Source: Pseudomonadota bacterium
Lineage (GTDB): Bacteria > Bdellovibrionota_C > UBA2361 > OMII01
DNA length: 37,437 nt
Direction: 5' to 3'
Assembly: GCA_900299035.1 (NCBI GenBank)
Contig: OMIG01000034.1
Span: 1-37,437 of the forward strand
The first letter of the stretch is position 1, and every line of letters starts with the position of its first letter. This document shows, in pieces, positions 18,904 through 37,437 of the stretch. The notes beneath the pieces were generated by a model. That model did no database searches, was not told the origin of the DNA, and worked only from the letters and a program-made list of their open reading frames with translations. Both the position numbers and the translations under genes were made by a program.

Positions 18904-20451
18904 TTACGCGGCGAGCCCGCCGTTGCCGTCTCGAACGAACTCAAGCAGCTCAGCCAACATCTCGCGGTTGGTTATGATGCGCGGAACCTTGTTCTGCCCG
19001 CCGAGCTTCCCGCGCTTCTTCATCCACGCGGCGAATGTTCCCGCTGCAACCGGAAGGACCTGTGGGGCCTTCAAGCCAAATCCCCCAGAGCGGTGTGACT
19101 CGTAGTCCTCGTTGCGTTGGCAGAGCTTTCTGTCGAGCGCATCCGTGAAGCGCTGGAGCTGCTCGGCTCCTGGCTGCGAACCGCAGAACTCAACCACGTA
19201 GATGTGCCCACCGAGCTCGCCCGAACGCTCCGGGAAGACAGGACCTACCGTGAAGTCTGCGATCTCCGCAGCGATCTCCTTGGCGGCTGTGACGACGCCG
19301 TCCTCGACTTCCTCGGCGATCAGGTGTTCCCCGAACGCTGAGAGGTAGTACGAGGTGCGCCCCGTAACGAGCACGCGCGGCACCTTGGTGTCTACGAAGC
19401 GAACGGTGTCGCCGATGACGTACGACCAGAGGCCAGCGCAGGTGCTCATGACCACTGCGTAGTTGACGTCCGGCTCCACGTTGCCGATCCAGTGACGGGT
19501 TGGGGCAGGGCTCTCAAGCTCCTCCAGGGGCACAAACTCGTAGAAGATGCCGTGGTCGAGGTTCATGCGGAGCCCGTCGCCGTAGCCGCGGTCAGCAATC
19601 GCGAGGAATCCTTCGCTGGCCGGATACACCTCGCGCAGCTCAGCGTGGCCGCCGTCGAGCACGTCCTTGAAGCGCTGCAGGTACGGCGCGAAGTTGACGC
19701 CGCCGTGCACAACCATCTCGAGGTTCCTGTAGATGCTCGCGAGCTTCCCGGCGCCATCCGGGCTGAGCGAGGCGAGCTTGTCGAAAAAGATCAGGAGCCA
19801 GGCCGGCACGCCCGAGATCATCCGGATATCTTCCGAGAGCGAGAGCTGCGCGAGCGTGTCGACCTTCTCTTCCCAGTTCTTGATGAGCGCAAGCTCTGCG
19901 GGCGGGAAGTAGCGCGACTTGAGCCACCACGGGAGCGTCTTGACGGCTATGCCGCTCAGATCGCCGAAGAAGATTCCCGGTTTCGGCTCAGTTAGGTCCG
20001 TGCTGCCGCCCAGCATGAAGCTCTTGCCTCCGAGCAGTGACGACTTGGGGCGGTTTGTCACGTGGTGAACGAGCAGGTCGATGCCAGCCTTCGTGTTCGA
20101 CTTGAGCATGTCATCCGAGCACGGAATGTACTTCGTTGTGCCAGAGCTCGTGCCAGAGCTGACGGGGAAGAATCGAATGGTGCCCGGCCAGGTGCAGTCA
20201 GTGAGAGTTGGGAAGGGCTCCTTCCAGAACTCTTCCCAGAAGGCTTCGTACTTCCGCAGCGGAACGCGCTTCTGGTACTCCTCGATGGTTGCGATGGACG
20301 AGAAGCCGTACATGCGCCCGAAGGCGGTGTTGCGGGCCCGGTCAACGAGCCAGCGAAGCTGCTGTTGCTGCATCTCTTGTGGCGAGCGAGCGCGAAGCTG
20401 CTCGTTGCGCCAGCGAGCGTAGAGGCGAAGGAGGGGAGTAGCGTCGAACAT
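18904..20451 (-). CDS. GH3 (auxin-responsive promoter) family acyl-adenylating protein
   Basis: RNTAFGRMYGFSSI, RFFPVSSGTSSGTTKYIPCSDDML, YPASEGFLAI, YVIGDTVRF, LSAFGEHLIAEEVE. Confidence 0.9.
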   Translation of the reverse strand: MFDATPLLRLYARWRNEQLRARSPQEMQQQQLRWLVDRARNTAFGRMYGFSSIATIEEYQKRVPLRKYEAFWEEFWKEPFPTLTDCTWPGTIRFFPVSSGTSSGTTKYIPCSDDMLKSNTKAGIDLLVHHVTNRPKSSLLGGKSFMLGGSTDLTEPKPGIFFGDLSGIAVKTLPWWLKSRYFPPAELALIKNWEEKVDTLAQLSLSEDIRMISGVPAWLLIFFDKLASLSPDGAGKLASIYRNLEMVVHGGVNFAPYLQRFKDVLDGGHAELREVYPASEGFLAIADRGYGDGLRMNLDHGIFYEFVPLEELESPAPTRHWIGNVEPDVNYAVVMSTCAGLWSYVIGDTVRFVDTKVPRVLVTGRTSYYLSAFGEHLIAEEVEDGVVTAAKEIAAEIADFTVGPVFPERSGELGGHIYVVEFCGSQPGAEQLQRFTDALDRKLCQRNEDYESHRSGGFGLKAPQVLPVAAGTFAAWMKKRGKLGGQNKVPRIITNREMLAELLEFVRDGNGGLAA

Positions 20452-28130: not shown

Positions 28131-28592
28131 CTACTCTTCGTTCGAGAGAGGCGCGAGTGCTTCGTCCGGAAGTCCCAGCAAGTCCCTGAAGCGCCTGCGC
28201 AGGTAGATCTCCATCCCGTCCACAACTCCGTTGCAGCGGATGAGGCTGTCCATGACGCTGCCCATCGCACGTTTGGTTGTCGGGTCGAGGGTGTCTTTGA
28301 GCAGGGAGGCGAAACTTGAGCTGCTGCCCATGTTAGAGAGGTGCGCCCGTGCTCGCGCCACCAAGCCGGCGGCCGTTTCGTCTGAGATCTCAAAAAGGTT
28401 CTTTAAGCCGTGGTGAATGACAGACTTTTCAAAGCGGTCGACCTGGCTGTCCGAGGACGCTATCTCCATCAGGACGATAGCGGTTGCGAGCGAGAGGTCT
28501 GCTTTGTTCTTGAGCACAGCTTTGCGCTGCTGGAGCGACTGCATGTGCTGAAAAATCGCCTCAGAGCTTAATCCAGAGAAGGAGTTGTTCAT
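28131..28592 (-). CDS. TerB-like protein
   Basis: ATAIVLMEIASSDSQVDRFEKSVIHHGLKNLFEISDE...: acidic helical TerB-type repeat pattern. Confidence 0.65.
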   Translation of the reverse strand: MNNSFSGLSSEAIFQHMQSLQQRKAVLKNKADLSLATAIVLMEIASSDSQVDRFEKSVIHHGLKNLFEISDETAAGLVARARAHLSNMGSSSSFASLLKDTLDPTTKRAMGSVMDSLIRCNGVVDGMEIYLRRRFRDLLGLPDEALAPLSNEE

Positions 28593-28707: not shown

Positions 28708-29988
28708 CTACTGCAGCTTCTGGGCGAGCTTCTTGGCGGCGTCTGTGAACTTGCCGGGATCAAAGTGATTAGGGCTTTTGAGGGTCACAAAGAGCTTGTC
28801 GAGCAGGGACTTGTAACGCTTCGCCAGGTCGGGAGAGGTGGCCATCGCAGCCTGGATTCCCATGCCGATCTGCTCTGCAACTTCGTACTTCGGCGACTCA
28901 GCCGCCGCAGCGAACGTCGCCAGCTCTCGCATGACAGCAGCGCTCGTCTTCTCGCCTGGCTCAAGCTTCATGACGAGGGGGTGCACGCGCGACTTGAGCA
29001 GATCCTCCATCTTTCCGAGCGCATCTGAGGCGCCGTCAGCCTGGAACGATCCCTTAACCGAGACGACGAGCTGTCCTAGCTCTTCTGCCAGGGGACGGTC
29101 GAGCGCCAGGAGCGCGTGCTGCAGCATTACTAGCGGAGCGACGTTCACGTTCAGCTTACCAGGCTTTCCGCCGTACGTTCTGCTCTTCCACTGGTGTTCG
29201 TCTAAGTTGTGGTGGCACGAGAAGCAGTCAAAGACGCTCAACTCCGGGAAGGTTCCGTTGCGAGAGAGGGCTGGCGAGCGCAGCGTGGCAACGACTCCTT
29301 CGGCCAGGGTCTCTTGCCCGATGAACCAGGCTGCGAGCGGCGAGTAGGGGCCCTTGCGGCGCAGGTAGTCCTCGTCGACTACCCAGTGCTTCGGCTCTAG
29401 CACACCGTAGGTGTCGAGCTCAAAGCTCAGGCGCGGGTGGCCGGCGCCGTACAGGTCATGAGTGACGCGGCGGTCCTTGTCGCCGTAGTGGCACGAGACA
29501 CACAGCTGCGCGCGCTTGTCGAGCGAGACGGTGTCGGCGAGGCCGTTGGAGAGATTCTGTTGGTGCGTCGTGCCGAGAACCGCGTGCGTCTCAAGCCAGC
29601 GCTCCGCAGGACCGTGGCACGACTCGCACGACACGCCGTCCTCGGCGGAGTACTTCTCTCCGCGCTGCTCTGCGCTCGGGACGTAGGTCGAGTGGCACTT
29701 GAGGCACAGCGGCTCCTTTGCTGGATCGCCGAGGCCCATCAGTGAAGCCATGCGCTTGGCATCGGCCTTGAGCAGCACTGTGTAGGCCTGCGAGTGTTTG
29801 TCGTGCTTGAGCCAGGTGAAGTACTCGTTTTGGAGGACGTTGGAGCTCTTGCGGGCGTGGGTACTGCCGTGGCAGTTCGAGGATGAGCAGGTGCCTGTGC
29901 CCATGTACCTGTCGGGAGAGGCGGACGCCATCGCCGGAGCCAATAGGAGCACAGATATCAAAAGCTGTTTGATTTTGGAGATAGCCAT
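28708..29988 (-). CDS. Multiheme c-type cytochrome (cytochrome c554-like)
   Basis: Signal peptide from ATG 29988 (MAISKIKQLLISVLLLAPAMASA), four CXXCH (CLKCH, CESCH, CVSCH, CFSCH) plus one CX4CH (CSSSNCH); AAGGGA SD. Confidence 0.9.
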   Translation of the reverse strand: MAISKIKQLLISVLLLAPAMASASPDRYMGTGTCSSSNCHGSTHARKSSNVLQNEYFTWLKHDKHSQAYTVLLKADAKRMASLMGLGDPAKEPLCLKCHSTYVPSAEQRGEKYSAEDGVSCESCHGPAERWLETHAVLGTTHQQNLSNGLADTVSLDKRAQLCVSCHYGDKDRRVTHDLYGAGHPRLSFELDTYGVLEPKHWVVDEDYLRRKGPYSPLAAWFIGQETLAEGVVATLRSPALSRNGTFPELSVFDCFSCHHNLDEHQWKSRTYGGKPGKLNVNVAPLVMLQHALLALDRPLAEELGQLVVSVKGSFQADGASDALGKMEDLLKSRVHPLVMKLEPGEKTSAAVMRELATFAAAAESPKYEVAEQIGMGIQAAMATSPDLAKRYKSLLDKLFVTLKSPNHFDPGKFTDAAKKLAQKLQ

Positions 29989-30076
29989 CGTCCCTTCGTT
30001 GTTTGCTGTATCACCGAAAAGCGGGACGGTATCAAGCGCCAATATCGCAGGGCTTCTGCCTCACCCTCTCATGAGC

Positions 30077-30093
30077 TTGAATGCGCAATTCAA
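30077..30093. promoter_or_regulatory. Perfect dyad TTGAAT-N5-ATTCAA in divergent promoter region (putative regulator site)
   Basis: TTGAATGCGCAATTCAA in the 29989-30256 intergenic region. Confidence 0.45.
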
Positions 30094-30119
30094 CTTTCCC
30101 TGGTATCAGGCGTTTTAAA

Positions 30120-30148
30120 TTGCCACGCTGGAGATCGAAAATTATAGT
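30120..30148 (+). promoter_or_regulatory. Sigma70-like promoter for the redox operon
   Basis: TTGCCA-N17-TATAGT, one mismatch to each of TTGACA and TATAAT. Confidence 0.6.
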
Positions 30149-30256
30149 CAGGCAGCTGCGCTTACGCGTATGCGCTAATAAGTTCTGCCTCTCCCAGCAG
30201 ACACTTCGCCTTGAAGAGGAAAGGCCTCTCAAAGCGGGTGACTGCTCGTATGATCG

Positions 30257-32599
30257 ATGTCACAGCATTTTGAAATTGCGGTAATAGGAGCAGGCCCAGC
30301 CGGGATCGCCGCCGCCGCGAGCGCTGCGCACCACAAGATCTCCCACATTCTGCTGGAGAAGGGTGAGGTCGCCAACACGATCTACGACTACCAGCTCCGC
30401 AAGCACGTGATGGATGAGCCGGGCAGGCTGCCGCTGCGCGCGCACTGCCGGTTCGTGGCTGGCAGCCGAGAGAAGGTGCTGCAAGAGTTTAGCGAGGACA
30501 TCGCCAAGCATGCCGTGAACATGGTGCGTGCTGAGGTCACCGCCATCACCAAGAGCGGCGACCTGTTCCAGATATCGTACGGCGGGCAGTCGTGCACCGC
30601 AAAGCACCTGATCCTCGCGATCGGCGTGCAGGGCTCGCCGCGAAAGCTCGGAGTGCCTGGCGAAGACTCAGGGGCCGTCGCGTATACGCTCTCTGACCCT
30701 GACGCTTTCAAGGCGAAGAAGATGATCGTCGTCGGTGCTGGCGACGCAGCGATCGAGAACGCGCTTGCGCTCGCAGAGAGCAACTCGGTGGTGCTCGTGA
30801 ACCGAGGCTCCGAGTTTGCCCGCGCCAAGGACGCAAACTCAAAGCTCATTCTGGCTGCGATAGCCTCGGGAAAGATCCGCTGCCTGTACGGCGCAACCAT
30901 CTCGCGCCTCGAGGGGCAGAACGCCTTGATCAACACGCCAGATGGCGAGGTGACGGTGCCCTGCGACCAGGTCATTGCGCGGCTTGGTTGCGTGCTGCCG
31001 AGGAAGTTCCTGGAAGGTATCGGCATTCAGTTCCCGAGCGCCGACGCCAACTCGGTGCCTGTCGTCAATCGGCGGTATGAGTCAAACGTCCCTGGCCTCT
31101 ACATCCTCGGCGCGCTGATCGGCTACCCGCTGATCAAGCAGGCGATGAACCAAGGCTACGAGGTTATCGAGCACATTCGGGGCGAGCCGGTAGAGCCTGC
31201 CGACCAGCCACTGCTTGAGGAGCGCTTCGAGGGGCTGTCGGGAGGCTTCAGCCAGAACTCCCCGAAGATAACCCAGACCCTGCCGCTCTTTCAGGGCCTG
31301 AGCGAGCCGCAGCTCCGTGAGATGCTGATCGACTCCACGCTGCACGAGAAGCGCGCCGGGGACGTGGTGTTCGAGAAGGACGACTACACTGACACCTTCT
31401 TTAGCGTGGTGACTGGAAGCGTTGAGATTCTCATCGGCGGCGGCCGGAAGATTCGGCTCGCGCAGGGCGAGTTCTTCGGCGAGATGGGCCTTCTCTCTGG
31501 GCGGCGCAGGGTCGCCACGGCGGTTGCGGCGGAGAACGGCACGATCCTGCTTGAGACGCCGAGGAAGCAGATGCTCAAGCTGATCGCCTCAGTGGCGTCG
31601 GTCAAGCGCGCTCTCGACGAGCTGTTCATGTTCCGCGCCATGCAGACATCGATCTTCCCTGACACGCCAGAGGACTTCCTCAAGGCGCTCGTGCAGAAGG
31701 CGCAGATGAAGAGCTTCAAGAAGGGCGAGGTGCTGTTCCGTGAAGGAGAGCCCGGAGACGCCATCTACGTCATTCGAAAGGGATCCGTGAAGGTCTCTCG
31801 TCTCAACCGCAGCGGGGCAGATGTCGTTCAAACGTACGTGCCTGCTGGTCGCTACGTCGGCGAGATGGCCGTGCTGCAAGAGGAGAGCACGCCGCGCACC
31901 GCCACGTGCACCGCGGCAGTGGCGTGCGACACGATCCTCATAAAGAAGGAGGACGCACTGGCGATCCTCTCGCAGTTCCCAGACAACCGCAGGCGCGTCT
32001 TCGCCGTGGCCGATGAGCGCCGCGTGCAGAATGTCGTGACGGACTGGAGTGATGAGGCAGGCAAGCTGCTCGACTTCATGATGCGAGAGGGGCTCTCTGA
32101 CGCAGAGAACGTGCTCCTGATCGACTCGGACCGCTGCGTCGCGTGCGACAACTGCGAGGCAGCCTGCGCGGCGACTCACAGCGGCTACTCACGGCTCGAC
32201 CGCAAGGGGGGCAAGAGCTTCGCGGCGATTCAGCTTCCGATCTCTTGCCGTCACTGCGAGAACCCGCTGTGCATGACAGACTGTCCGCCGGATGCGCTCG
32301 TGCGGCAGGCCGACGGAGAAGTTGTCATTAAGGAATCGTGCATCGGCTGTGGCAACTGCGTGAGCAACTGCCCGTACGGCGTCATTAAAATCGTCTACGA
32401 CCACGCCTCAACGGGCTTCTCGCTCAAGGCGCTCCTCGGGCTCAAAAAGCCTGAGAAGGGCCCGGCCAAAGCGGCTAAGTGCGACATGTGCCACCAGCTG
32501 CCGGGCGGGCCGGCGTGCGTGAGGGCCTGCCCAACAGGCGCCGCCATGCGAGTCAACTCTAGCAAGCTGGTGCAGATAGCCGCCGGGAGGAGAGAGTAG
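30257..32599 (+). CDS. Fusion protein: FAD/NAD(P)-dependent oxidoreductase + two cyclic nucleotide-binding domains + 4x[4Fe-4S]-type ferredoxin
   Basis: IAVIGAGPAGIAAAASA and MIVVGAGDAAIENALALAE; CNB cassettes GEFFGEMGLLSGRRRVATAV and GRYVGEMAVLQEESTPRTATCTA; CVACDNCEAAC, CRHCENPLCMTDC, CIGCGNCVSNC, CDMCHQLPGGPACVRAC. Confidence 0.92.
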   Translation: MSQHFEIAVIGAGPAGIAAAASAAHHKISHILLEKGEVANTIYDYQLRKHVMDEPGRLPLRAHCRFVAGSREKVLQEFSEDIAKHAVNMVRAEVTAITKSGDLFQISYGGQSCTAKHLILAIGVQGSPRKLGVPGEDSGAVAYTLSDPDAFKAKKMIVVGAGDAAIENALALAESNSVVLVNRGSEFARAKDANSKLILAAIASGKIRCLYGATISRLEGQNALINTPDGEVTVPCDQVIARLGCVLPRKFLEGIGIQFPSADANSVPVVNRRYESNVPGLYILGALIGYPLIKQAMNQGYEVIEHIRGEPVEPADQPLLEERFEGLSGGFSQNSPKITQTLPLFQGLSEPQLREMLIDSTLHEKRAGDVVFEKDDYTDTFFSVVTGSVEILIGGGRKIRLAQGEFFGEMGLLSGRRRVATAVAAENGTILLETPRKQMLKLIASVASVKRALDELFMFRAMQTSIFPDTPEDFLKALVQKAQMKSFKKGEVLFREGEPGDAIYVIRKGSVKVSRLNRSGADVVQTYVPAGRYVGEMAVLQEESTPRTATCTAAVACDTILIKKEDALAILSQFPDNRRRVFAVADERRVQNVVTDWSDEAGKLLDFMMREGLSDAENVLLIDSDRCVACDNCEAACAATHSGYSRLDRKGGKSFAAIQLPISCRHCENPLCMTDCPPDALVRQADGEVVIKESCIGCGNCVSNCPYGVIKIVYDHASTGFSLKALLGLKKPEKGPAKAAKCDMCHQLPGGPACVRACPTGAAMRVNSSKLVQIAAGRRE

Positions 32600-32601
32600 C
32601 C

Positions 32602-33420
32602 ATGTCGCAGGAGACGTTCCTCAACTACCGGCGCTTTAAGTGGCTCTGGATAACAGCGGCGGCTCTCGTCGTGCTCACGATCATCTACGCTGTCGACCGC
32701 CCAATCGGCGGCCGCAACGGCGGCACAGCAGTTGGGTACACCTACGGCACGCTAGCGGCGCTCGGCATCGTGTGGCTGATGGCGTTCGGGCTCAGGAAGC
32801 GTTCCTACCGCTCCTCTCTCGGAACGCTCGAAGGGTGGCTTGCGGCGCACGTGTGGATTGGACTTGGTCTGCTGCTGCTTGTGCCGCTGCACTCCGGGTT
32901 CAGCTTTAGCTGCAACGTCCACACGCTCGCGTACCTGTTGATGGTCGTCACGATAGTGACCGGGATCTGGGGCGCTGCAAACTACTCGACGCTCTCGGCC
33001 CGCATCTCGGCCCACCGCGGAGGGGCGAAGGACGAGCTCGTGGTGGAGCGCATCCAGGACCTGAGCGACCAGGCAGAGCAGCTCTGCCGCGGCAAGAGCG
33101 AGGCGTTCTTGAAGCTCTACAACGAGTTCTGCGTGCCATTTAAGCCTTCGCTTGGCTGGATTCTGCTCAGGAGCCGGCAGCCCAAAGTCGACGCGAGCGC
33201 CGCCAGCGGCATGCTGTCGGGCGTTGCCGAGGGCGAGCGTGCCGACGCCGTGAGCATGATCGGGCTGCTCGACCAGCGGCTCGACATGCTGCGCAGCCTG
33301 GCCGAGCAGGCCCGCATTCGGGCGCTGCTTCGGGTTTGGCTGTACGTCCACGTGCCGGTCTCGTTTGCGCTCTGCGTGGCGCTCGTTGTCCACATCTTCT
33401 CAGTTTTTTACCTCTGGTAG
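32602..33420 (+). CDS. Cytochrome-b-like integral membrane protein
   Basis: About five TM segments with in-membrane His (AAHVWIGLGLLLLVPLHSGFSFSCNVHTLAYLL; YVHVPVSFALCVALVVHIFSVFYLW); 2-nt gap to the upstream CDS. Confidence 0.75.
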   Translation: MSQETFLNYRRFKWLWITAAALVVLTIIYAVDRPIGGRNGGTAVGYTYGTLAALGIVWLMAFGLRKRSYRSSLGTLEGWLAAHVWIGLGLLLLVPLHSGFSFSCNVHTLAYLLMVVTIVTGIWGAANYSTLSARISAHRGGAKDELVVERIQDLSDQAEQLCRGKSEAFLKLYNEFCVPFKPSLGWILLRSRQPKVDASAASGMLSGVAEGERADAVSMIGLLDQRLDMLRSLAEQARIRALLRVWLYVHVPVSFALCVALVVHIFSVFYLW

Positions 33421-33423
33421 CTC

Positions 33424-35103
33424 ATGGCGTTCGGATTTCGCTTCATACACGAGAAGAGCTCCGGTACCGGCGCATCAGAGCGGCGGGTTGTTGACCTCCA
33501 GCAGAGGGAAGTGATCTTTGGCCGCGGCGGCGCGTCTCACGTGCTGCTTTCGAGCCACAAGGTAGGGACCGAGCACGCAAAGTTCTTCTGGGATGGCGAG
33601 AAGCTCCTGGTAGCAGACTTAGCATCGCCTACCGGCGTGCGAGTGAATGGTCGGCTGGTGAGCCGGGCAGAGCTGCACGACGGCGACACGGTGCTGCTGG
33701 GAGATGTCGAGCTTACGTTGAGGCTCGACGGCTCAATTGCGGAGCTCACCTGGCTTGAGGCGCCGCAGGCATCGATTCCCGATGCTGAGCGCATCGCGTC
33801 GGCGGTAGGGAAGCTGCGTGTTGACTCGTACCTGCCGTCGATTCGGGCTCTCTCGATTGTGCTCGTGGCGCTCGGCACGGTGGCTTGGCTCGCGTACCCA
33901 CTAGGCACCAGCAGCAAGCGCCAGTGGAGCTCAGGGCCGATCTCGAGCCAGCACAAGCTGATCGAGAATGACTGCGTGAAGTGCCACGCTGAGCCGTTTA
34001 AGCCAGTTCGGGACCAGGAGTGCCAAGCATGCCACTCGATGAGTGAGCACGCGCAAGGCTACAGCACCTTCGTGTCGCAGCACGCGGGGCTTGAGATGCG
34101 CTGCGCGCAGTGCCACATGGAGCACAACGGCGACCACGCCCTCATCTCGCGTGACCAGCGGTTCTGCACCTCCTGCCATGCCGAGATGTCAAAGCTCAAG
34201 CCGGGCGCGGATATCGAGGACGTGTCCTCCTTTGACCAGCACCCACAGTTCCGGATAGAGGTGCGCGACGCGCTCGGAGCAGTGACAAAAGTCAGCCTCG
34301 ACGACTCAAGCCGCGCAAAAGACTCCTCTCAGATAAAGCTCAACCACAAGCTGCACCTCAAGCAGGGCCTTGAGGGAAAAGACGGCCCGGTGACGCTTGA
34401 GTGCTCGGCGTGCCACCAGCTCGACGAGAACTTCAAGCAGCTCAAGCCGATAGAGTTCGACAAGCACTGCCGCGACTGCCACTCACTCGGCTTTGACGAG
34501 CGGCTGCCCGAAGCGGAGGTGCCGCACGGTGACTCTGAAGCGGTGTTCCCGGCACTCTTTGCGGCCTACTCGCGGGTGGTGCTGCTGGGCGAGGACCAGT
34601 CGCTGCCCAACCCGGCTCGTGACATGGAGCGGGACAAGCCCGGAGACCTCGACCCAGAGCCCGCTCAGATCGAGGGCAGCGGCGTGTCAGCTGTAGTCGA
34701 GAACGCCCGAGAAGCCGAGCGGCAGCTCTTCACCCGGACTGGGTGCTTCCTGTGCCACTCGTACAAGGAGAAGCCTGAGCTTCTACAGACCTCAACCAAC
34801 TCTCACTACGAGGTGCTGAAGCCAGGAGTTCCAAATGTGTGGTTCACGGCAGCCCGCTTCAGCCACGGGGCACACGAGGAGTTCACCTGCGAGTCCTGCC
34901 ACGAGAAGACTCGGGAGTCGACCCAAACCTCAGAGCTGCTCCTTCCCGGCAAGAAGATGTGCCAGGACTGCCATGCATCGGGAAGGCGCCAGGGTTACGT
35001 CTCTTCTGACTGCGTGGAGTGCCATTCGTACCACGACTCTCTTGGTTTTCCGCACGAAAAAAAGCAAGATATCGCCTCGTACATCAAGGGCCTAACTAGG
35101 TAG
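33424..35103 (+). CDS. FHA domain - TM - decaheme c-type cytochrome
   Basis: FHA motifs (EVIFGRGGASHVLLSSHKVGTEHAKFFWDG...VNGRLV), TM RALSIVLVALGTVAWLAYPLG, then ten CXXCH motifs (CVKCH, CQACH, CAQCH, CTSCH, CSACH, CRDCH, CFLCH, CESCH, CQDCH, CVECH). Confidence 0.92.
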   Translation: MAFGFRFIHEKSSGTGASERRVVDLQQREVIFGRGGASHVLLSSHKVGTEHAKFFWDGEKLLVADLASPTGVRVNGRLVSRAELHDGDTVLLGDVELTLRLDGSIAELTWLEAPQASIPDAERIASAVGKLRVDSYLPSIRALSIVLVALGTVAWLAYPLGTSSKRQWSSGPISSQHKLIENDCVKCHAEPFKPVRDQECQACHSMSEHAQGYSTFVSQHAGLEMRCAQCHMEHNGDHALISRDQRFCTSCHAEMSKLKPGADIEDVSSFDQHPQFRIEVRDALGAVTKVSLDDSSRAKDSSQIKLNHKLHLKQGLEGKDGPVTLECSACHQLDENFKQLKPIEFDKHCRDCHSLGFDERLPEAEVPHGDSEAVFPALFAAYSRVVLLGEDQSLPNPARDMERDKPGDLDPEPAQIEGSGVSAVVENAREAERQLFTRTGCFLCHSYKEKPELLQTSTNSHYEVLKPGVPNVWFTAARFSHGAHEEFTCESCHEKTRESTQTSELLLPGKKMCQDCHASGRRQGYVSSDCVECHSYHDSLGFPHEKKQDIASYIKGLTR

Positions 35104-35115
35104 CGAGTGCCTCAC

Positions 35116-37005
35116 ATGAAAAACACCCCTGCACGTCTCCTGTCAGCGGCTATGACTCTTTCAGTAACCCTGGCCGGATGCGGCGGTGGTTCAGGCTCAA
35201 GCGGCTCCAGCAGTGGCGGCGATCCGAACGCCAACTTTAACTGCGACGGAGGCTGCGCGAACCAGTCGCTCTCGGCTGAGGATGTAACAACGATCTTGCG
35301 TCAGGCGATAACGGCAGCCAACAACCTCGGCACCGCAGGAACGTTCGCGGTCGTCGACCGCACGGGAAACGTGCTCGCGCTGTACCAGATGAATGGAGCG
35401 CCGCTCACGACCGTAATCAATGGCCAGACGGGAGCCACCGGGCCGCTCGAAGGGCTCGCTGTTCCGTCAACGCTGGCAGCGATCTCGAAAGCCGGTACAG
35501 GAGCGTACCTCAGCTCTCAGGGGAACGCCTTCTCGACGCGCACCGCTGGGCAGATCATCCAGCAGAACTACCTCCCTGGGCAGCGCCAGCAGCCGGGCGG
35601 GCCGCTCTTCGGCGTGCAGTTTTCGCAGCTAATCTGCAGCGACGTCACCCGCGCCAACGGAGCGACCGGCCCGCGGCCGTTGCCGCTCGGACTATCGGCT
35701 GACCCGGGTGGCTTTCCGCTCTACAAGCAGGGCGACCCAGTGGGCGGAATCGGGGTCGAGTTCGACGGCCTCTACACAATAGACCCTGACATGCAGAACT
35801 ACGATGCAGACCCCGAGGAGGAGGTGGCGCTCTCGGCGAGCGTTGGGTTTGAGGCTCCAGCACAGCGCGTTGGCGACAGTATCTCCCTTGCTGGCCGTTC
35901 GCTTCGCTACTCCAACACGAGCTACTCTGAGATCGTCGTGCCGACGGATCTTGCGCCGCTCAATCCGGCAGGCCTGAAGTCTCAGCCTTCGTACACCAGC
36001 GGCGGCATCCGCCCGGGCACGACCTTCGGCACTGGGCCCTCAGGCATCGCCGACACCGTGAAGGCAGGGCTTCCTGCGGCTGTTGTCACGGGACGGTTCC
36101 CAACGATAGGAGGCCGGCCGCTCCCCGGAGGAGAGCAGCTCTCGGCGTCCGAGGTGAACGCGCTGCTTGACTCGGCGCTCATCACGGCCAGCAGGGCGCG
36201 CTCCGCTATCCGCACGCCGCTCGACACGGCGGCGCGCGTGTCTATCTTCGTCGTCGACAACTTAGGAAACCCGCTCGGCTTCATTCGCTCTCAGGACGCG
36301 CCGGTGTTCGGCGTCGATGTGGCGCTCCAGAAGGCGAGAGCTGCGGCATTCATGAGCTCTGCAGACGCAGGCTCGACCCTGTCAGCGGGAGGGCTCGGCG
36401 GCTTTGCTTCATCGTTCGCCGCGTTCACGGGCACCTCTCTGGACGGCAGCCACGCCATCTCTTCGCGAGCAGTCGGAAACGTCTCTCGCCCGTTCTTCCC
36501 GGACGGCATTAACGGGAACTCAAACGGGCCATTCTCGCTTCCGTTCCCTGGAACCGCTCCTGGCCAGAGCTGGTCGGTCTTCAACACAGGGCTGCAGCTC
36601 GACCTGGTGCTTGGCGGCTTCACCGGCCCGATCTTAAATCCGGGCTCGGTTCCCAACGGCTGCACGAACGGCGCCTTCGGCAGCCGAGTCAAGAACGGCA
36701 TACAGATCTTTCCGGGCGCGGTTCCGCTGTACCGCAACGGCGTGCTGATCGGCGCGGTCGGAGTGAGCGGAGACGGCGTCGACCAGGACGACATGGTTGC
36801 CTTCTACGGAGCCAGCAGGCGCGGGCTCGACTACGCGGGGTACACCACGGTTGGCGATGCCACGCTCGGCTTCAACTCGCCTAACGCGATCCGCTCAGAC
36901 CTCATTGAGCCGCAGCCCAATGCGAGGCTGAGGTACGTCAACTGCCCCGAGGCGCCCTTCAGTGGCAGCAACGAGCAGGGAGTGTGTGTCGATGGAGAAG
37001 GCTAG
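35116..37005 (+). CDS. Lipoprotein with two GlcG/HbpS-like (heme-binding family) domains
   Basis: ATG 35116, lipobox LAGC; TFAVVDRTGNVLALYQMNGA and RVSIFVVDNLGNPLGFIRSQDAPVFGVDVALQKARAAAFMSS; GAVPLYRNGVLIGAVGVSGDGVDQDDMVAF. Confidence 0.83.
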   Translation: MKNTPARLLSAAMTLSVTLAGCGGGSGSSGSSSGGDPNANFNCDGGCANQSLSAEDVTTILRQAITAANNLGTAGTFAVVDRTGNVLALYQMNGAPLTTVINGQTGATGPLEGLAVPSTLAAISKAGTGAYLSSQGNAFSTRTAGQIIQQNYLPGQRQQPGGPLFGVQFSQLICSDVTRANGATGPRPLPLGLSADPGGFPLYKQGDPVGGIGVEFDGLYTIDPDMQNYDADPEEEVALSASVGFEAPAQRVGDSISLAGRSLRYSNTSYSEIVVPTDLAPLNPAGLKSQPSYTSGGIRPGTTFGTGPSGIADTVKAGLPAAVVTGRFPTIGGRPLPGGEQLSASEVNALLDSALITASRARSAIRTPLDTAARVSIFVVDNLGNPLGFIRSQDAPVFGVDVALQKARAAAFMSSADAGSTLSAGGLGGFASSFAAFTGTSLDGSHAISSRAVGNVSRPFFPDGINGNSNGPFSLPFPGTAPGQSWSVFNTGLQLDLVLGGFTGPILNPGSVPNGCTNGAFGSRVKNGIQIFPGAVPLYRNGVLIGAVGVSGDGVDQDDMVAFYGASRRGLDYAGYTTVGDATLGFNSPNAIRSDLIEPQPNARLRYVNCPEAPFSGSNEQGVCVDGEG

Positions 37006-37010
37006 CCGGG

Positions 37011-37437
37011 ATGACTGAGCCTCACGCTTCACGTCCCCGGTCTCGGGGAGTTGGGGCAGCCGAGAGGTTCTCGGCTCGGGGCTCTCTCGGCGCAGCGATG
37101 TCGCTGGTCCTCTGTTTTACTGCAGAGGCCGCCTGGGCAGAGCCTCAGGCGGAAGAGCACGTTCCGCGCGAGGCCCTGGAGCGGCAGTTCCCGGACAAGG
37201 AAGCCGAGGCCTTTCCTGACTACATCTACGAGTCGATACCGCCAATCCAAGACTCGGCCTCCGAGTTCATCGCAATCCCCGACCGCTGGAGAATGTTTTA
37301 CGCCGGCAAGTACTACGACCCCTACAACCAGAACGTGCTCAAGGCCGACATTCCCGTGTTCGGAAAGCCAGGGCAGGAGTGGTTCGTTGAAACTTCTGCG
37401 ATCTCCGACTCCATGTTTGAGACGCGGCGCATCCCGG
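37011..37437 (+). CDS. Exported protein, 3' truncated by window (possible outer-membrane protein)
   Basis: Open frame from ATG 37011 to the edge: MTEPHASRPRSRGVGAAERFSARGSLGAAMSLVLCFTAEAAWAEPQAEEHV...IPDRWRMFYAGKYYDPYNQNVLKADIPVFGKPGQEWFVETSAISDSMFETRRIP; missing from the ORF track. Confidence 0.75.
   Translation, partial: MTEPHASRPRSRGVGAAERFSARGSLGAAMSLVLCFTAEAAWAEPQAEEHVPREALERQFPDKEAEAFPDYIYESIPPIQDSASEFIAIPDRWRMFYAGKYYDPYNQNVLKADIPVFGKPGQEWFVETSAISDSMFETRRIP

Follow-up and report, generated by a model that had tools for sequence, protein, structure and literature searches.

A flavin oxidoreductase with two cyclic nucleotide-binding domains and an iron–sulfur module heads a conserved multiheme cytochrome operon and may feed an extracellular electron conduit

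The 37,437-nucleotide stretch of DNA analysed here (the window) encodes a 780-residue protein in which an FAD/NAD(P)H oxidoreductase, two cyclic nucleotide-binding (CNB) domains and an iron–sulfur module with 16 cysteines are joined in one polypeptide, and its gene is the first of a conserved operon that encodes membrane proteins and multiheme cytochromes. On balance we favour the reading that this protein is the cytoplasmic, NAD(P)H-linked entry to a trans-envelope conduit leading to an extracellular acceptor, and that it is gated by cAMP and/or cGMP. The reading is built on the domain content, the residues of the nucleotide pockets and cysteine clusters, the gene linkage, and the flavin and barrel folds. 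The protein and its parts are as follows.

30257..32599, plus strand: FAD/NAD(P)H oxidoreductase–CNB1–CNB2–4x[4Fe-4S] (predicted) protein, 780 aa (Pfam, alignment, model)
30257..31186, plus strand: FAD/NAD(P)H domain, residues 1-310, with a YpdA/TrxR-like fold (Pfam, Foldseek)
31277..31591, plus strand: CNB1, residues about 341-445, cassette F407-G408-E409 ... R418-x-A-T421 (Pfam, alignment, model)
31649..31981, plus strand: CNB2, residues about 465-575, cassette G535-E536 ... R547-T-A-T550 (Pfam, alignment)
32111..32554, plus strand: HydN/HycB-like ferredoxin module, residues about 619-766, 16 Cys (Pfam, alignment)

The reading frame opens with ATG and has no internal stops. A preliminary description of this DNA had placed an FAD part, two CNB domains and a 16-cysteine Fe-S module in this one frame and had proposed a domain-architecture search; Pfam and the alignment bear it out, with Pfam returning Pyr_redox_2/_3 (residues 6-300), cNMP_binding twice and Fer4 dicluster families (at about residues 660-762). 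Matches to NCBIfam models all fall below the cut-offs, with YpdA hitting the flavin part, AegA and HydN the Fe-S part and CRP the CNB domains; among solved structures the closest chains are those of YpdA/Bdr and TrxR, the regulatory domains of PKA and PKG, and HycB-like ferredoxins. An AlphaFold2 model of the protein built with 58 homologues has a mean pLDDT of 80 and is mostly confident in the flavin and CNB parts, with the Fe-S part at about 50-60; because this part and the relative placement of the domains (pTM 0.68) are weak, the geometry of gating is not readable from the model.

A search for close relatives recovered 14 homologues at full or nearly full length (56-79% identity), and scanning a single genome from each species gave 425 relatives, the best 79 of which are 46-79% identical over nearly the full length. 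Such recurrence (the best 79 of 425) excludes a chance origin, and an artefact of gene fusion or assembly is ruled out by the presence of the full architecture in these 79 and on a complete plasmid. The best 79 loci belong to Gamma-, Alpha- and Betaproteobacteria, Nitrospinota, Myxococcales and Bdellovibrio/Oligoflexia MAGs, with hosts that include Alcanivorax, Colwellia, Lysobacter, Solimonas and Sphingobium. Conservation counts for the protein are taken from 80 aligned sequences with a minimum pairwise identity of 42%, a median of 56% and values up to 79%. Homologues from culturable hosts include those of Alcanivorax sp. 1008, Solimonas sp. SE-A11 and Sphingobium herbicidovorans (WP_231568103.1). 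Many genomes carry the family, which is annotated in public records as hypothetical or by its CNB alone; the RefSeq label of the S. herbicidovorans protein is only 'cyclic nucleotide-binding domain-containing protein'. The gene is also found on large Sphingobium plasmids, pMSHV (L122, NZ_CP020539.1) and 11 others, one of them typed as conjugative. A Nitrospinia MAG, OFTM166, has a second copy (L047:10001-12337) with the operon partners absent nearby, and domain-shuffled relatives (L024, L025, L028, L034, L026 and L035) are of three types: CNB and Fer4 without a flavin domain, flavin with one detected CNB and Fer4, and Fer4 and flavin without a CNB.

The two Rossmann motifs noted previously are present in the flavin domain, as GxGPxG at residues 11-16 and GAGDAA at 160-165, and the second is followed by N182-R183...R189-A-K191. 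R183 and K191 are kept in 80/80 sequences and R189 in 79/80, and residue 184 is Arg or Lys in 53/80. This pattern, after the second Rossmann strand, suggests by analogy with what is known of the TrxR family a preference for NADPH over NADH. The top Foldseek matches of the flavin part are the YpdA/Bdr structures 7apr and 7a7b (TM 0.85 to 7apr by target length), followed by TrxR-like ferredoxin-NADP reductases. Both groups share their fold and sequence family with the FAD part but are stand-alone dimers without CNB or Fe-S domains, and the match to the YpdA model (NCBIfam TIGR04018) reaches 141.9 bits against a cut-off of 339.9. In the NAD(P)H half, Cys209 (window 30881-30883) is conserved in 74/80 sequences and has no obvious role.

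The two CNB domains match PF00027 (cNMP_binding) in two stretches (7.5e-38; 128.8 bits against a cut-off of 27.5), and the model places a helix at 409-414 in CNB1. G408, E409 and R418 of CNB1 and G535 and R547 of CNB2 are invariant (80/80), E536 is kept in 79/80, and the residue after the cassette Arg is Ser or Thr in most of the 80. The cassette Glu and Arg, which are the positions contacting the ribose and phosphate, are thus kept in both domains, while variation in the family is greatest in the linkers and in the remainder of CNB2. The second cassette had been singled out as close to canonical, and it is so; however, the first, FFGEMGLLSGRRRVAT, is equally canonical. It is probable from these residues that both domains bind a cyclic nucleotide (cAMP and/or cGMP), a view supported by the near-invariance of the cassette Glu and Arg and by the three class III nucleotidyl cyclases encoded in the host genome. 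A cyclase is present in 7/8 of the other operon-bearing genomes, and among relatives at least 80% complete it is found in 15/15 with the gene and 12/24 without it (p = 0.0009, uncorrected for kinship or incomplete assemblies); a supply of ligand in the hosts is plausible.

The kinship of the flavin part with YpdA and TrxR, its closest families, raises the question of whether this is instead a thiol-disulfide reductase acting on thioredoxin, bacillithiol or another thiol, with the other domains as accessories, and the conserved Cys209 would suit such an activity. However, the CxxC of thioredoxin reductases, which the preliminary description had also failed to see, occurs in 0/80 sequences, and the active cysteine of YpdA (in GGGPCG, position 15) is missing, being Ala or Gly in the family, Ala in the window and Cys in 3/80. 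On these two absences we reject thiol reduction as highly improbable, and the constant linkage of the gene to an electron conduit also speaks against it. A more serious doubt concerns the CNB domains, which might be structural linkers or bind some other ligand, leaving the enzyme constitutive. CNB folds without nucleotide regulation are known, a domain with an intact cassette can still be structural or a poor binder, and the Glu and Arg of the window's CNB2 cassette are separated by two additional residues, which 64/80 relatives lack. Nevertheless, the Glu and Arg of both cassettes rank among the most conserved CNB residues, their conservation amid a variable remainder argues against decayed or purely structural domains, and the hosts have cyclases, so that we think a constitutive enzyme rather unlikely, although worth keeping in mind.

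All four of the cysteine clusters described previously are present in the Fe-S module (C627/630/633/637, 664/667/672/676, 695/698/701/705 and 742/745/754/758), and the 16 cysteines, invariant in 80/80 sequences, are the predicted ligands for four [4Fe-4S] clusters. The HydN/HycB ferredoxins likewise have 16 cysteines for four [4Fe-4S] clusters but are usually separate subunits, whereas here the module is fused. AegA and YgfT, as here, combine a HydN-like Fe-S module with a pyridine-nucleotide flavoprotein, although in these the Fe-S module is N-terminal and CNB domains are absent; the AegA model (NCBIfam NF009408) matches the Fe-S part alone, with 90.7 bits against a cut-off of 1003 and a different domain order. 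The suggestion that this module is the acceptor for the flavin holds as far as an internal acceptor is concerned, but the module is unlikely to be the final one because the operon that the gene heads also encodes a di-heme protein of the inner membrane, an outer-membrane barrel and multiheme cytochromes. The neighboring features in the window are as follows.

28708..29988, minus strand: c554-type multiheme cytochrome, predicted to be periplasmic, with four CxxCH and one CX4CH (Pfam Cytochrome_C554)
29989..30256, no strand: intergenic region between the divergent genes, putative promoter region (sequence)
32602..33420, plus strand: inner-membrane protein, 272 aa, five predicted TM helices, two W-X3-H-X13-H (motif, TM prediction)
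33424..35103, plus strand: cytochrome c with an FHA domain, one TM helix and ten CxxCH (Pfam FHA, Cytochrome_C7; TM and CxxCH positions)
35107..37005, plus strand: HbpS-like protein with a lipobox-like LAGC, likely start at 35116 (Pfam HbpS-like, N-terminus)
37011..37437, plus strand: start of an outer-membrane beta-barrel gene, truncated where the contig ends (profile match, translation)

The conserved order is the flavin/CNB/Fe-S gene, the di-heme-b-type membrane protein, the FHA–TM–10-heme cytochrome c, the HbpS lipoprotein, an AlgE-like barrel and a 10-heme LVIVD cytochrome; in the window the first four of these genes follow one another with gaps of 2-3 bases. Among loci with enough contig the membrane protein is present in 67/74, the FHA cytochrome in 67/71, HbpS in 51/61, the barrel in 47/55 and the outer cytochrome in 43/50. 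Because the contig stops 427 bases into the barrel gene, the links to the barrel and to the outer cytochrome are seen in the relatives, in which the outer-membrane protein is 530-610 aa long and the ten-heme LVIVD-repeat cytochrome roughly 1240 aa. The seven genes on S. herbicidovorans plasmid pMSHV form two blocks that face each other, yet all of them lie within 17 kb. The 4-heme cytochrome is divergent in close relatives and downstream or absent elsewhere; its frame in the window would reach 30042 if a TTG start were used. Downstream of it is a TerB-family protein gene (28131-28592, minus strand) that stays near it in close relatives. Elsewhere in the window, which is from an uncultured bacterium, a GH3-family (auxin-conjugase-like) protein gene (18904-20451, minus strand) adjoins a fatty acid desaturase gene, and no structured RNA was found in the window.

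The His pairs of the membrane protein (His83/His97 and His250/His264) are kept in at least 90% of 72 homologues, and it probably binds two b hemes. A model of the barrel of one relative (L036; pLDDT 85.6) has the alginate porin AlgE as its best PDB match (E 8e-17), and no solved structure related to the barrel by sequence was found. The FHA cytochrome has 10 hemes in 66/71 relatives, and its FHA domain keeps the Arg in 66/68 and the His in 56/68. Three Hanks-type kinases exist, but we do not claim FHA-dependent control by kinases because the Ser aligned with the usual phosphothreonine contact is present in only 8/68. The FHA-type ten-heme cytochromes of Nitrospinota are larger (L050:8767-11553 and L046:13194-16259; 929 and 1022 aa), and that of L050 includes a large WD40 propeller region.

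From this arrangement we infer a route in which NAD(P)H would reduce the FAD, and electrons would pass from it through the four [4Fe-4S] clusters to the di-heme b protein of the inner membrane, then to the membrane-anchored ten-heme FHA cytochrome, and leave through the outer-membrane barrel with the ten-heme LVIVD cytochrome to an extracellular acceptor. An outward feeding of cell electrons is probable because the gene almost always adjoins a cytochrome chain through both membranes, and such a flow would follow the drop in potential and the membrane potential. The CNB domains, binding cAMP and/or cGMP, would gate transfer between the flavin and the Fe-S module; as they sit between electron entry and Fe-S exit, a ligand-driven movement could connect or disconnect the flavin and the wire, letting the cell open or close a drain on its NAD(P)H pool.

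The outer-membrane barrel and the 10-heme FHA and 10-heme LVIVD cytochromes, in their predicted cell locations, correspond to the components of a porin–cytochrome conduit, and the operon resembles in part PCC3 and PCC4, putative porin–cytochrome clusters that He et al. (2017, PMC5566968) put forward for Fe(II) oxidisers. As described there, the PCC3/PCC4 inner-membrane protein has five TM helices and two W-X3-H-X13-H motifs, which in PCC4 lie on TM3 and TM5, as they do in the window protein; it is likened to the di-heme domains of ferric reductase/NOX and cytochrome b, and a quinone-active role is proposed for it. A porin and several multiheme cytochromes are common to both. According to the same paper PCC4, which has members in Mariprofundus and Oceanospirillum beijerinckii, is found with 'other redox-active proteins', in its subgroup II the membrane protein gene is preceded by a pfam13247 Fe-S gene, and its multiheme cytochromes have 4, 5 and 10 sites, none extracellular, as against 4(+1), 10 and 10 here with an AlgE-like barrel. 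To the PCC4-type Fe-S gene the upstream protein here adds FAD/NAD(P)H and two CNB domains; cyclic-nucleotide-binding, FAD and FHA domains go unmentioned in the main text of PMC5566968. Given the shared W-X3-H-X13-H signature, the upstream pfam13247 gene and the 'other redox-active proteins', the operon may be PCC4 itself, with the make-up of its cytoplasmic module now visible, or a sister system. For 27 Gallionellaceae genomes a list of cytochromes (PMC10734462) includes an unplaced ten-heme one described as forkhead-associated, which may be the FHA cytochrome of this operon.

These same parallels invite two other readings of the operon. Since the W-X3-H-X13-H motif is that of putative clusters proposed for Fe(II) oxidisers, and a ten-heme forkhead-associated cytochrome occurs in Gallionellaceae, the conduit could run in reverse, drawing electrons from a donor outside the cell, for instance Fe(II) or Mn(II), and passing them inward to reduce NAD(P)+ or the quinone pool, with the cyclic nucleotide switching uptake. 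However, reduction of NAD(P)+ with outside electrons would oppose the membrane potential and start from a high potential, and Alcanivorax, Colwellia, Lysobacter, Solimonas and Sphingobium are known as heterotrophs, so we regard inward flow as unlikely. Still less probable in our view is a conduit in which the membrane protein is fed by quinol, as a quinone-active role would imply, with the flavin/CNB/Fe-S protein not the main donor but a redox sensor that loads from the side or regulates, for in most loci the flavin gene is directly upstream of the membrane protein gene, and its cofactor sites are complete.

An NAD(P)H-fed, outward conduit of this kind would differ from those already characterised. 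MtrCAB, MtoAB and PioAB also place a porin and multiheme cytochromes across the outer membrane, although their barrels and cytochromes are different, and they exchange with quinol via CymA or similar rather than with a cytoplasmic NAD(P)H flavoprotein. A point against the conduit reading is that an AlgE-like barrel is not known from a characterised porin–cytochrome complex. The working principle proposed here is shared with FRD/NOX enzymes, in which cytosolic NAD(P)H-FAD and a di-heme b membrane wire give outward transfer, whereas here the flavin family is another one, an Fe-S chain lies between, a multiheme c conduit lies beyond, and the polypeptides are separate.

The component parts are of known kinds; a search of 5.39 million open papers turned up neither their fusion nor a link of cyclic nucleotides to a trans-envelope conduit. 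None of these papers was found to treat cyclic nucleotide binding, extracellular electron transfer and multiheme cytochromes together, nor did wider searches of open papers find the flavin/CNB/Fe-S architecture. Known extracellular electron conduits are described as draining the quinone pool and as controlled through gene expression; the entry enzyme here would instead be fed by NAD(P)H and have two sensors of second messengers built in. It is possible, and we put this forward tentatively, that the operon represents a widespread class of conduit whose NAD(P)H-oxidising feeder responds directly and post-translationally to a cyclic nucleotide, giving a second-messenger on/off switch for export, in hosts that are mostly not deemed electroactive. 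If so, cAMP or cGMP could switch extracellular electron transfer within seconds, and the candidates for electron export would number hundreds of species, with culturable Alcanivorax, Colwellia, Solimonas, Lysobacter and Sphingobium among them.
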